Below, in pieces: positions 20,322 through 26,546 of a DNA stretch of 64,000 nt. The position numbers and the translations under genes were made by a program. Under the pieces are notes generated by a model. It saw only the letters and a program-made list of their open reading frames with translations. It searched no databases and had not been told where the DNA came from. Source of the stretch: Halobaculum sp. CBA1158 (lineage in GTDB: Archaea; Halobacteriota; Halobacteria; Halobacteriales; Haloferacaceae); assembly GCF_021431925.1 (NCBI RefSeq), contig NZ_CP090371.1:682001-746000 (forward strand), given 5' to 3'. Numbering within the stretch: position 1 is the stretch's first letter; each line of letters opens with the position of its first letter.

Positions 20322-21130
20322 CGGTCGTCCCCGCCGAGGCCGACGGCGGTGCCGAACGCCCGCGCGAGCGCGTCGCTCTCGACGAACTCGTCGGTCGGGC
20401 CGTCGAAGTACACCTCGCGGTTCAAGCAGACCACGCGCTCGGCGTGGTCGACGACGGCACCGAGGTCGTGCTCGATGAGGAGCACGGTGATGCCGTCGTC
20501 GTTGAGCGCCTCCAGGAGGTCGTAGAACGCCTCGACGGACTCGGCGTCGACGCCGACGGTCGGCTCGTCGAGCACGAGCAGGTCCGCCTCGCTCGCGAGC
20601 GCCCGGGCGATGAAGGCGCGCTGGCGCTGTCCCCCCGAGAGCTTCGTGATCCGGCGGTCGGCGAAGTCGCTCATCCCGACTGTCGCGAGCGCCTCGTCGA
20701 CGATCCGCCAGTCCTCGGCCGACAGCAAGCCGAAGCCGACGTGGGGGAACCGACCCATCTTCACCACCTCGCGGACGGTGATCGGCATCTCCTTGGCCGC
20801 GCTGGCGTGCTGGGAGACGTACCCGACGCGCTCGCCGTCGTCGAAGCGGTGGGCCGGCTCGCCGAACAGGCGCGTCTCGCCCACGTCGGGGCGAAGCAGG
20901 CCGAGCATGAGCTTCATCAGCGTCGACTTCCCCGAGCCGTTCGGGCCGACGACGGCGACGTACTCGCCCGCGGCGATGTCGAGGCTCACGTCCTCGACGA
21001 CCGGCGTCGCCGTGTAGCCGAACGTCACGTCCGACAGGGAGATCACGTCGTCGTCGGTCGACCGGGTCGCCCCGTTGTCCGCGGGGTCGGCGGCGCTCGT
21101 GGACTCGGCCGTCGCGTCGGCGCGGCTCAT
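20318..21130 (-). CDS. Metal ABC transporter ATP-binding protein (ZnuC/MntA type)
   Basis: This 270-aa ATPase has Walker A GPNGSGKST, signature LSGGQRQRA and Walker B LLVLDEPTVGVDAES. ISLSDVTFGYTATPVVEDVSL is the typical entry strand. It has a Ser/Thr/Asp-rich leader of about 25 residues. The start overlaps the stop of the binding-protein gene (ATGA) and its stop overlaps the permease start, so all three subunits are coupled. The ATPase works on the cytoplasmic face as a dimer. Confidence 0.93.
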   Translation of the reverse strand: MSRADATAESTSAADPADNGATRSTDDDVISLSDVTFGYTATPVVEDVSLDIAAGEYVAVVGPNGSGKSTLMKLMLGLLRPDVGETRLFGEPAHRFDDGERVGYVSQHASAAKEMPITVREVVKMGRFPHVGFGLLSAEDWRIVDEALATVGMSDFADRRITKLSGGQRQRAFIARALASEADLLVLDEPTVGVDAESVEAFYDLLEALNDDGITVLLIEHDLGAVVDHAERVVCLNREVYFDGPTDEFVESDALARAFGTAVGLGGDDR

Positions 21131-22212
21131 TCGAAGTTCCTCCACTCGTCGTTCCAGCCGTCGTATCCGGCCTCCTCGGGGGGCGTGTTGCCGAGGACGA
21201 CCTCGAAGGTGGGCATGTTGATGTTGTACGCGATCTCCTCGTAGCCCCAGTCGTTCTCGACCCAGTCCTCGCGCACGCCCGCGTACGGCGTCACGGGGTA
21301 GTACGCCTCCACGTCGGTCTCGGCGATGAGCTGTTTCGCGGGCCGGCGCGTCTCGAAGACGCCCGCCCCGATGTAGCGGATGTCGTTCTCGTCGATGACG
21401 CGCTTGGCCTCGGTGATGTCCGAGGGCTTCACGTCGCCGCTTGCGGCGAGGTTGACGACGAGCGGTCGCATCTGGACGCCGTAGCGGTCTGCGATGTACT
21501 GGAAGGCGTTGTGCGCGGCCAGTTGAACCACGTCGCGCTCGGCAGCGTCGAAGATCGCCTCGTAGTCGGCGTCGATGCGATCCAGTACCTCCTTGTACGA
21601 CGCCGCGTTGTCGCGGAGCGCGTCCTCGTGGGCGGGCGCGAGTTCGACCAGCCCCTCGACGATGTTGTCGACCGCGACCTTCGCCCGCCGGGGATCGAGC
21701 CAGAAGTGCGGGTCCCGCCCACGGCCCTCGCCGACGCCCTCCTCGTCGCGGTCGAGGGTGTCCGCGAGGGGAACGAGATCGACGCCCTCGCGGACGTTGA
21801 TCAGCTGCGTGTCCACGTCGTCGTCCTTCAGCGTCTGGATGGCGCGGTCGGCCCACGGCTGGAAGTCCTCGCCGACGTGGATGAACGCGTCTGCGTCGAC
21901 GATCTGTCTGGTGATGGTCGCGTTCGGCTCCCAGCCGTGGCCGTGCAGGCCGGTCGGCACGAGGTTTCGAACGGTGATCGGCGTGTCGTCGGCGATCTCC
22001 CTGGCGAAGTCGTAGAAGCTGAAGAACGACGCCACAGCGACCGGTCCGTCCGCTCCGTCGTCGGTTCCCGATCCGGCGTCTCCCCCGCGGCCGCTCCCGG
22101 CCGCACCGCCGAGACACCCGGCAGATCCGGACGCGAGCAGGGCCGTCCCGCCCGCGAGGAACCGGCGTCTGGTCGGTCTCGGCGAACCCGTCGGGTCACG
22201 TGCGTCGGTCAT
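21127..22212 (-). CDS. Metal-binding lipoprotein of a Zn/Mn ABC importer
   Basis: This 361-aa cluster A-I solute-binding protein has a twin-arginine signal with TRRRFLAGG (about residues 14-22), followed by a lipobox ending at Cys33 (GSAGC). This suits haloarchaeal Tat export and lipid anchoring. Expected metal ligands are the His residues in LHGHGWEPN, DPHFWLDP and AAHNAFQYI, plus a late acidic residue. It delivers Zn2+ or Mn2+ to the permease. It is the first gene of the operon. A CTATATCC-like TATA box lies about 26-34 nt before the start. Confidence 0.93.
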   Translation of the reverse strand: MTDARDPTGSPRPTRRRFLAGGTALLASGSAGCLGGAAGSGRGGDAGSGTDDGADGPVAVASFFSFYDFAREIADDTPITVRNLVPTGLHGHGWEPNATITRQIVDADAFIHVGEDFQPWADRAIQTLKDDDVDTQLINVREGVDLVPLADTLDRDEEGVGEGRGRDPHFWLDPRRAKVAVDNIVEGLVELAPAHEDALRDNAASYKEVLDRIDADYEAIFDAAERDVVQLAAHNAFQYIADRYGVQMRPLVVNLAASGDVKPSDITEAKRVIDENDIRYIGAGVFETRRPAKQLIAETDVEAYYPVTPYAGVREDWVENDWGYEEIAYNINMPTFEVVLGNTPPEEAGYDGWNDEWRNFE

Positions 22213-22264: not shown

Positions 22265-22284
22265 AGATTAGACTATTCTAATCT
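22265..22284. promoter_or_regulatory. Palindromic operator candidate for the metal importer operon
   Basis: AGATTAGA-CTAT-TCTAATCT is a perfect 8-bp inverted repeat with a 4-bp spacer. It lies about 20 bp upstream of the probable TATA box of the Zn/Mn importer, in the AT-rich part of the gap. DtxR/MntR/SirR-family metal regulators bind such TTAG/CTAA-type dyads. The regulator gene is not in the window, so the assignment is an inference. Confidence 0.6.
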
Positions 22285-22460
22285 TTGGTGCTACGTGTCG
22301 TCCGGGCGCGGTTCCGGTTCACGTCTCGATGCCGTGTAAGACGGCCGTGCCTCGGCGGGCGGGCGACCGCAAGAGGGAGGCGGCCCTCGGTCGGTCGGTG
22401 TGAGTCACGCGTCGGACATCGGGGATACATTAATATGGGCGGTGTCGTAAACGGAGGGTG

Positions 22461-23135
22461 ATGAGCAAGATCACCTTCCGCGCGGACTCGGACCTCGTGG
22501 ACCGCCTCGACGAGTTCGAGGCGTCCAAGAGCGAGGTCATGCGGGAGGCGCTCCGCGCGTATCTCGACGACGCGGAGCGGCGGGACGCGGTCGGCTCGGG
22601 ATCCGACGGTGTCGCCGAGGAGCGCTCTCCGCTGGACGACGCGTTAGCGGCCCGCGTCGACGAACTGGTGACCGCGCGCCTCGACGAGGAGTTCGGGACC
22701 CGGCGCGGTGATCGCGGCGGTTACGCGGACCGAGGGCGTCCCTCCCGAACCCCTCGCGTCGCCGATACCGTTCCGTCGGTGGACCTCACCGTGAACGTCG
22801 ACGGCGTCGGGGCCGGAGTCGACGGACCCGCAGACGGAGACGAAACGACAGCCACAGCCCCGAACGCGCCCGCGACGACGGCGAACGACGGATCGCGTTC
22901 GGAGACTGACCGGGAGACGGAGGCGGCCGCGGGAACCGCGTCGGACGCGGACTCACGAAGCTGCGCGCAGTGCGGAGAGGACGTGTCCGACGACCACGTC
23001 TTCTGCCCGAACTGCGGGGAGAAGGCGACCCGGCGGCTGTTCTGCGAGTGCGGGGACGAGGTTCGTTCCGACTGGGGGTTCTGTCCGGGATGCGGTCGAC
23101 GGACGCCGACTGCCGACGTGCTCGACGCGCCGTAA
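22461..23135 (+). CDS. cdrL: CdrL: ribbon-helix-helix protein with C-terminal zinc ribbons
   Basis: This 224-aa protein has an N-terminal ribbon-helix-helix DNA-binding unit (SKITFRADSDLVDRL, SKSEVMREALRAYL, about residues 2-36) and an acidic/Ala/Thr linker. The C-terminal double zinc ribbon has CAQC, CPNC, CECG and CPGC. Gene order with cdrS and ftsZ2 and the domain set match CdrL of Haloferax and Halobacterium, a regulator of the cdrS-ftsZ2 promoter. A GGAGG stretch directly precedes the start; ATG at 22461 is preferred to the GTG one codon before. Its stop codon lies inside one of the GTAAGAC motifs. Confidence 0.85.
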   Translation: MSKITFRADSDLVDRLDEFEASKSEVMREALRAYLDDAERRDAVGSGSDGVAEERSPLDDALAARVDELVTARLDEEFGTRRGDRGGYADRGRPSRTPRVADTVPSVDLTVNVDGVGAGVDGPADGDETTATAPNAPATTANDGSRSETDRETEAAAGTASDADSRSCAQCGEDVSDDHVFCPNCGEKATRRLFCECGDEVRSDWGFCPGCGRRTPTADVLDAP

Positions 23136-23171
23136 GACGCCGCGCCGGTTTGCCGGGGACTGACACCGGAT

Positions 23172-23338
23172 GTAAGACAACTTGGCGGTATCGGTCATAC
23201 AACCGCCGGTAACTTTATATATAATCGGTATGTTGGTAGGGGTGCGTAAGACGGCATGTCTTACGACTCGGTCGGTCGGGGCGGGGAAACTCCGGCCGCT
23301 GGTCGTGAGGACACGTGTGATCGTGTCTGTCGTCTTAC
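23172..23338 (+). promoter_or_regulatory. cdrS-ftsZ2 promoter with GTAAGAC motifs
   Basis: A TTTATATATAA TATA box at 23214-23224 predicts a start near 23247. This is within a perfect 8-bp inverted repeat CGTAAGAC-GGCAT-GTCTTACG at 23245-23265. Further single motifs are at 23172-23178 (upstream) and 23332-23338 (inverted, in the leader). The leader to the cdrS ATG would be about 110 nt, long for this genome. The layout fits autorepression by the ribbon-helix-helix proteins CdrL and/or CdrS. Confidence 0.65.
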
Positions 23339-23355: not shown

Positions 23356-23547
23356 ATGGAGCGTGTGACACTACGAATCCCGAAACAGCAGATCGAGGAG
23401 GTCGAACAGATGGTCGAGACGGGGGAGTTCCCGAATCGCAGCGAGGCGATTCGCTCCGCCGTCCGCGACATGCTCAACGAGCAGGCTGACGCCTCCGGTG
23501 AGCGGACGCGCGGCGAGCGCAGTAAGCGCAGCTGGGCGAAGGTGTAA
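23356..23547 (+). CDS. cdrS: CdrS: small ribbon-helix-helix regulator of cell division
   Basis: This 63-aa protein is almost only a ribbon-helix-helix fold ([19 protein letters not shown], then [16 protein letters not shown], residues 2-45) with a short basic tail. In Halobacterium salinarum the orthologue CdrS controls ftsZ2 and cell division. Here it ends 1 nt before the ftsZ2 ATG, so both are on one transcript. The ATG at 23356 is chosen because the fold begins there; the frame upstream runs through the leader and promoter. Confidence 0.92.
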
Positions 23548-23548
23548 C

Positions 23549-24766
23549 ATGCAGGACATCGTCCAGGACGCCCTCGCGAACGCGGAGGCGGAGCAGCGGA
23601 GCATGGACGCCGGCGGCGACGACGACGAGTTCGGGGAGCCCCGGATCGTCATCGTCGGCGCGGGTGGTGCCGGCAACAACACCATCAACCGACTGTACAA
23701 CATCGGCGTCGACGGCGCGGAGACCGTCGCGATCAACACCGACAAGCAGCACCTCAAGATGATCGAGGCCGACACGAAGATCCTCGTCGGCAAGTCCCTG
23801 ACCAACGGGCTCGGCGCGGGCGGCGACCCCTCGATGGGCGAGCGCGCCACCGAGATGGCCCAGGGAACGATCAAGGAGGTGCTCGGCGACGCGGACCTGG
23901 TGTTCGTGACCGCCGGCATGGGCGGTGGAACGGGCACCGGCGCGGCCCCGGTCGTCTCGAAGATCGCCAAAGAGCAGGGCGCGATCGTCGTCGGCATGGT
24001 GTCGACGCCGTTCAACGTCGAGCGCGCCCGCACCGTCAAAGCCGAGGAGGGGCTCGAGGAGCTCCGCAACGAGGCCGACTCGATCATCGTTCTGGACAAC
24101 AACCGCCTGCTCGATTACGTCCCGAACCTCCCGATCGGCAAGGCGTTCTCGGTGATGGACCAGATCATCGCCGAGACGGTGAAAGGGATCTCCGAGACCA
24201 TCACCCAGCCGTCCCTGATCAATCTGGACTACGCGGACATGTCCACGATCATGAACCAGGGCGGCGTCGCTGTGATGCTCGTCGGCGAGACCCAGGACAA
24301 GAACAAGACCCAGGAGGTGGTCAACGACGCGATGAACCACCCCCTGCTCGACGTGGACTACCGCGGCGCGTCCGGCGGGCTGGTCCACATCACCGGCGGT
24401 CCCGACCTCACGCTGAAGGAGGCCGAGGGAATCGCCGACAACATCACCGAGCGCCTCGAGGCGAGCGCGAACGTGATCTGGGGCGCGCGCATCCAGGAGG
24501 AGTACAAGGGGAAGGTCCGCGTCATGGCGATCATGACCGGCGTCCAGAGCGCGCAGGTGCTCGGTCCGAGCACGCAGAAGCAGGCCGACAAGTCGCGCCA
24601 GAGCATCGAGGGCGGCCAGGCGTCCGAACTCGACTTCGACGCGAAGTCGAACGCCGAGGCCGCCGCAAACGGCGGAAACGGTGGGAACCAGGAGGCGGCC
24701 TGGCAGTCCGACGGCGGCCGCGACTCCCGCAACGAGCGGAACAACGGCCTCGACGTCATCCGCTGA
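23549..24766 (+). CDS. ftsZ2: Cell division GTPase FtsZ2
   Basis: This 405-aa tubulin/FtsZ homologue polymerises at mid-cell and drives constriction. An acidic N-terminal leader (about 30 residues) precedes the GTPase domain with [15 protein letters not shown]. The tubulin signature GGGTGTG is at about residues 125-131, and the T7-loop-like [11 protein letters not shown] is in the C-terminal domain. A Gln/Asn/Gly-rich tail ends in RNNGLDVIR, a likely partner-binding peptide. In Haloferax volcanii FtsZ2 acts in constriction and FtsZ1 in assembly of the division machine; the gene order with cdrS identifies this as FtsZ2. Confidence 0.96.
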
Positions 24767-26478: not shown

Positions 26479-26546
26479 CGCCGACGCGACGAGCGACGAC
26501 GGTGCGACGCGTAAGACGCTTCACCCGGGAGAGCCGATCAGACGCC

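Follow-up and report, generated by a model that had tools for sequence, protein, structure and literature searches.

Which protein reads the short word GTAAGAC, which recurs around cdrL, cdrS and the cell-division gene ftsZ2 of Halobaculum sp. CBA1158? The control of FtsZ levels in archaea is largely open, and CdrL, reported to regulate cdrS-ftsZ2 directly and for which we now propose a site, comes without a usable deletion phenotype, the cdrL mutant having been set aside owing to second-site mutations (PMC7439475). We analyzed the locus within a stretch of 64,000 nucleotides, hereafter the window. Its features are as follows.

22336..22342, plus strand: GTAAGAC half-site preceding cdrL, in the stretch that cdrL shares with the divergent znuA-type gene
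22461..23135, plus strand: cdrL, the proposed binder, with an N-terminal ribbon-helix-helix (RHH) and a C-terminal double zinc ribbon
23132..23138, plus strand: exact GTAAGAC half-site over the cdrL stop codon
23172..23178, plus strand: GTAAGAC half-site that precedes the TATA box and lies 74 bp from the palindrome's left arm
23194..23200, minus strand: half-site in the variant form GTATGAC, at the 52-bp position that most genera use; absent from the initial annotation
23214..23223, plus strand: TATA box TTTATATATA of the cdrS-ftsZ2 promoter; the left arm starts 32 nt past its first base
23246..23264, no strand: palindrome GTAAGAC-GGCAT-GTCTTAC, predicted core operator, at the predicted transcription start
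23246..23338, plus strand: predicted leader RNA of two nested stems, left arm with near-ATG arm and right arm with mid region
23302..23311, plus strand: GTCGTGAGGA, RNA partner of the right arm, where other genera have the mid GTAAGAC copy
23332..23338, minus strand: GTCTTAC half-site close before the cdrS start codon, also the 3' arm of the outer RNA stem
23356..23547, plus strand: cdrS, a 63-aa ribbon-helix-helix regulator
23549..24766, plus strand: ftsZ2, the controlled cell-division gene

A cluster of GTAAGAC copies around cdrS-ftsZ2

The initial annotation listed six exact copies of GTAAGAC or its complement GTCTTAC, and all were recovered, at 22336, 23132, 23172 and 23246 on the plus strand and at 23258 and 23332 on the minus strand; a seventh copy in the window, at 26511, lies outside the cluster. 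Dinucleotide shuffles of the window yield a mean of 2.96 copies per 64 kb (0.046 per kb). A pattern search, from which all our genome-wide counts derive, finds 36 copies in the 3.32-Mb genome against 55 for the reversed control word, so the motif is rare and far from equally frequent across the genome. Six copies in 1003 bp compare with about 0.009 expected from the remaining 30 genomic copies: the cluster does lie far above chance, as first claimed, while the 0.1 copies then expected was too generous. Chance clustering was rejected on the low genome count and the class-wide conservation of the motif. The only other close pair in the genome, 121 bp apart in a 23S rRNA gene (G000:C1:194463 and 194584; L262), is rRNA sequence and represents no regulatory sites.

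The details of the promoter also held. The 8-bp inverted repeat CGTAAGAC-GGCAT-GTCTTACG occupies 23245-23265, with its left arm 32 nt past the first TATA base, at about +1, and the TAA stop codon of cdrL lies inside the copy at 23132. This overlap with the stop codon is also seen in L001-L005 and in several Halorussus loci, and a copy like that at 22336 recurs at -898 to -1081 from cdrS in Halobaculum loci and in the MAG QS_6_71_20 (L001-L004). Both CdrL and CdrS are RHH proteins as annotated, matching Pfam RHH_1 above its curated cut-off (24.5 bits for CdrL and 35.2 bits for CdrS; cut-off 20.5), and CdrL also matches DZR (33.6 bits). The ftsZ2 product matches Tubulin and FtsZ_C and shares 75-92% identity with FtsZ2 of 14 other genera. 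The arrangement with cdrL upstream of cdrS is found in the window, in loci L001-L080 and in deep-branching Halobacteria.

On the other side of cdrL, a znuA-type gene (21127-22212, minus strand; Pfam ZnuA) is divergent from it, and a perfect inverted repeat, AGATTAGA-CTAT-TCTAATCT, lies between the two at 22265-22284; this is probably the operator of a metal-dependent repressor. That a zinc importer adjoins the zinc-ribbon protein CdrL deserves mention because cdrL is reportedly co-expressed with cdrS-ftsZ2 under metal overload.

Conservation of the palindrome across Halobacteria

We surveyed 292 Halobacteria genomes and examined 140 cdrS loci, 80 from named haloarchaea and about 60 further ones; about a dozen Haloferax species were inspected by name, excluding Hfx. 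volcanii, and Hbt. salinarum was likewise not among the species inspected by name. The palindrome GTAAGAC-N2..7-GTCTTAC is found in 286 of the 292 genomes and in 75 of 77 genera, and is single-copy in 285 genomes. Of the 140 loci, 135 have an exact palindrome at the cdrS promoter (134 with the position filter, L143 lying just beyond it), and independent searches placed it 91-131 bp upstream of cdrS in 19 genomes. Its spacer measures 4 bp in most loci, which puts 11 bp between units, and 5 bp in 24; an AT-rich TATA-type box precedes the left arm by 32-33 nt in most loci. Conservation upstream of cdrS in related species, which the initial annotation had proposed as a check, thus extends throughout the Halobacteria.

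Among the six genomes lacking the palindrome, one (G229) has no cdrS in its assembly and five (G014, G018, G123, G173, G285) carry a degenerate form: right arm GTCATAC in two, right arm ATCTTAC, left arm GTGAGAC and loss of the right arm in one each. The sole second palindrome in the 292 genomes lies near a transposase-domain gene (G239:C1:32069-32086; L250, L263). Across genera the arms are invariant, which we counted in favor of sequence-specific recognition. In Haloferacaceae archaeon XH8 (CP132292.1), two cdrL-cdrS loci (L024 and L029) are observed near the two ends of a single chromosome record; each has the complete set of sites, and cdrL appears truncated in L029.

Further copies at fixed positions

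The 140 Halobacteria cdrS promoters hold 625 GTAAGAC units, with 2 to 6 copies per 260 bp and a mode of 5; Haloferax loci have five to seven GTAAGAC-type copies each. Measured from the left arm, upstream copies lie at 52 bp, mostly inverted, or at 62-65 or 73-74 bp in direct orientation. The 52-bp site is exact or has one mismatch in most loci (exact GTAAGAC on the minus strand in 60, GTATGAC in 10, GTAAAAC in 8), and the two tolerated variants recur at different positions. These distances are suggestive of upstream copies placed at about 5, 6 or 7 helical turns according to lineage, the independent lineages being few. Downstream, a mid copy follows the right arm by 52-57 bp in 97 loci, and a near-ATG copy precedes the cdrS start codon by about 22 nt (-19 to -32 in most of the 140 loci). 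With the 52-57 bp spacing, the halobacterial copies do not follow a single strict 11-bp grid, a point against the operator reading.

A copy also occurs inside cdrL in 72 of 130 genes, within a poorly conserved linker, where it encodes Arg-Lys-Thr in nearly all cases. Could it be a by-product of coding? We rejected this explanation: the Arg codon of the site is CGT in 81 of 82 triplets, against 15.5% for the other Arg codons of the same genes. Such codon usage indicates that the cdrL-internal copy is under selection at the codon level, which makes a further testable prediction. Its distances to the palindrome spread over 284-351 bp with no single clear period. The window genome is without an internal copy and has the copies upstream of cdrL (22336) and over its stop codon (23132) instead.

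CdrL and CdrS as candidate binders

The initial annotation proposed the motif as a binding site of CdrL and/or CdrS, to be compared with published ChIP peaks. CdrL ChIP-seq in Hbt. salinarum (GEO GSE148065) detected binding solely upstream of cdrS-ftsZ2; the study reports this peak without a motif, palindrome or site, its position being given as the upstream region only (PMC7439475). A palindrome unique to each genome therefore fits the finding of this promoter alone. For CdrS, ChIP in Hfx. volcanii lists 18 sites, and the cdrS promoter is not among them (PMC8406309). The comparison supports the CdrL part of the proposal and speaks against the CdrS part, as does the motif at CdrS targets.

The CdrS motif is given solely as a figure in PMC8406309; we recovered it at the published targets in ten Haloferax genomes other than Hfx. 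volcanii. The ftsZ1 promoters carry GTC[AG]GAC-N4-GTCTGAC about 50 nt upstream of the expected start, the published distance being -50, and the dacZ promoters have one good half-site, GTCAGAC, at the published distance of -47 (PMC8406309). A pattern search in Haloferax placed GTCAGAC-N4-GTCTGAC about 70 bp before hisB, identified by Pfam and also a published CdrS target. In ftsZ1 promoters of other genera, the GTCNGAC pair is exact in 5 of 15 and has at most one mismatch in 9 of 15, always with N4. In the window, GTCNGAC is absent from the promoter region separating the cdrL stop codon from cdrS. Judged from these sequences, the unit used by CdrS is GTCNGAC and that of the predicted cdrS operator is GTAAGAC, with identical geometry. 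A conserved GTCNGAC pair was also seen in Haloferax (L258, L255) between a DUF7093 gene and a divergent aminomethyltransferase-type gene, and is likely a further CdrS target.

The proteins differ in a similar way. CdrS begins with MERVTLRI in 140 of 140 loci, and its recognition strand reads R-x-T-x-R in all of these as well as in outgroups; that of CdrL reads K-x-T-x-R in the 130 of 130 read, with the fuller form [STG]-K-[IV]-T-[FV]-R. The predicted recognition strands are close but distinct, matching the small difference between the two motifs. CdrS and CdrL have been reported as distinct RHH clades (PMC7439475).

We may nevertheless hypothesize autoregulation, in which CdrS is the protein that recognizes GTAAGAC and the repressor of the operon encoding it, CdrL being secondary or forming a heterodimer with CdrS. 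The similar recognition strands would allow this, and the asymmetric GTA-A-GAC keeps one CdrS-type half (GAC), common to both motifs, as a heterodimer would require. We consider this unlikely: the 18 Hfx. volcanii sites exclude the cdrS promoter despite the five to seven copies in Haloferax, and CdrS targets carry GTCNGAC.

Ancestry of the array

In 20 same-phylum loci outside Halobacteria, cdrS is present and CdrL is not beside it; in these 20 whole genomes, no RHH match to CdrL was found, only zinc-ribbon matches. The 20 cdrS upstream regions contain 45 GTCNGAC against 0.58 in shuffles, and a single GTAAGAC. When units with one mismatch are included, 108 of the 134 distances between pairs no more than 70 bp apart are exactly divisible by 11. 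The array lies between the TATA box and the start codon and looks like a cooperative one of CdrS type, which would therefore mean CdrS autoregulation in these species. Such CdrS-type arrays before cdrS also speak for the autorepression by CdrS weighed above.

The simplest history seems to be that Halobacteria gained CdrL, an acquisition also inferred by PMC7439475, and that the array shifted from GTCNGAC to GTAAGAC. Given the distinct RHH clades reported there, CdrL may have been recruited rather than have arisen as a duplicate of CdrS. In Natrialbaceae (L022, L025, L054 and others), a CdrS-type GTCTGAC is observed 14 bp past the mid GTAAGAC, at about -50 from cdrS; it may be a vestige of the control of this promoter by CdrS.

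A different DNA-binding protein, encoded elsewhere in the genome, might also be what binds GTAAGAC. This appears quite improbable, as the palindrome is confined to one locus and CdrL is a single-locus binder encoded alongside it, the spacing is typical of RHH proteins, and the taxonomic range of the motif coincides with that of CdrL when Halobacteria are compared with the 20 outgroup genomes.

The transcribed copies as a possible RNA leader

Some copies are transcribed and mutually inverted; taking a single locus from each genus, we assessed RNA pairing between them. Between the 3' right-arm flank and the 5' mid-copy flank, pairing reaches 0.605 against 0.439 when permuted (z about 5), and slid and wrong-direction controls gave null results. 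The inner flanks of the left arm and the near-ATG arm pair at 0.827 against 0.760 (z about 4). In a 39-genus alignment, the flanks show 47 double changes against 27.6 +/- 3.9 when shuffled, and a covariation score of 0.303 against 0.058-0.136 when slid. For the leader in the window, the minimum-energy fold is this nested two-stem one (z = -4.76); there GTCGTGAGGA replaces the mid copy and pairs at 9 of 10 positions with the right arm plus 3 nt. A search of the leader against Rfam returned no match at E <= 1. A hairpin between the left and right arms is disfavored, the outer flanks pairing in only 17 of 135 loci and without covariation.

The copies could thus be arms of a regulatory RNA leader acting on translation or stability, with no DNA operator at all. 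Register-specific covariation of the flanks of both stems, the strong fold in the window and the mismatch between cdrS-ftsZ2 mRNA and ribosome footprints in Hbt. salinarum (PMC8303175) are consistent with this explanation. However, upstream copies precede the TATA box, in both orientations, and others lie within or before cdrL; compensatory changes in the arms are nearly absent across many genera; the right-arm and mid-copy variants GTCATAC and GTATGAC break pairing yet recur as site variants elsewhere; and the outgroup units keep a DNA-like 11-bp grid. We regard a purely RNA role as very improbable.

Constraint on the leader copies as RNA was counted against a pure DNA operator, and we think that these copies serve at both the DNA and the RNA levels. 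Template switching between inverted repeats may be an alternative source of the flank covariation. One might go further and propose that GTAAGAC is read twice, as CdrL operators in DNA and as stems of the cdrS leader RNA controlling translation, possibly bound by CdrL through its zinc ribbons, so that two-level control of FtsZ2 would have arisen when CdrL replaced CdrS autoregulation; we hold this tentatively and as rather unlikely.

A model for the cdrS-ftsZ2 promoter

The cluster is, quite probably, an operator array of the cdrS-ftsZ2 promoter made of sites for RHH dimers, most likely of CdrL, and descended from a CdrS-type array. The locus encodes an RHH regulator, the repeats recur at about a helical turn, and the sites overlap or flank the promoter, as in other RHH operators; the single genomic target (285 of 292) and the confinement of the motif to CdrL lineages point to CdrL. 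The copies and their positions, the class-wide conservation, uniqueness and phasing, the CdrS-type sites and the outgroup array are direct observations; we infer CdrL as the protein, one dimer per unit, repression and the retargeting history. Each Y-GTAAGAC-R unit would take one dimer. On the palindrome, two neighboring dimers would cover the transcription start, spaced by about one helical turn, and the copies upstream, in the leader and inside cdrL would take further ones. With the start site occupied, initiation would be blocked, and CdrL would in this way limit CdrS and FtsZ2; upstream copies could contribute cooperativity, looping or activation. The array would have descended from the 11-bp-phased CdrS-type GTCNGAC units that relatives lacking CdrL still have. 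In Hbt. salinarum, ftsZ2 mRNA falls when cdrS is deleted (PMC7439475), and the circuit is therefore not one of simple repression throughout.

A predicted operator present once per genome across a whole class is a well-defined site to mutate in Haloferax or Halobacterium. The pairing of GTCNGAC and GTAAGAC with related recognition strands makes a clean case of rewiring between a regulator and its operator in two archaeal groups.

Comparison with known systems

RHH dimers bind separated half-sites in the Arc and NikR operators. The NikR half-site of E. coli, GTATGA, resembles the tolerated variant GTATGAC; NikR half-sites stand much farther apart than GTAAGAC units, and the regulated genes differ. 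The RelB operator relO of E. coli (PMC2812701) likewise involves adjacent RHH dimers on one face of the DNA and autogenous negative control, but it uses 12-bp palindromic half-sites of 6-bp repeats and RelE as co-repressor. Closest in geometry are the CdrS sites of Hfx. volcanii at ftsZ1 and hisB (PMC8406309), with inverted 7-bp units, a 4-bp spacer and an RHH protein bound; they differ in their half-site, GTCNGAC, and in lying upstream of promoters at about 18 loci rather than at the start site of one operon. The CdrL-cdrS-ftsZ2 system of Halobacterium salinarum (PMC7439475) has the identical genes, promoter region and single genomic target. The searched open-access literature contains no earlier report of the site, which had been put forward as unreported, and the GTAAGAC array is a new and well-supported predicted operator of RHH type. 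Two features of it are unusual: its apparent retargeting from a sister motif, and the sharing of its sequence with a probable RNA leader and a coding region.
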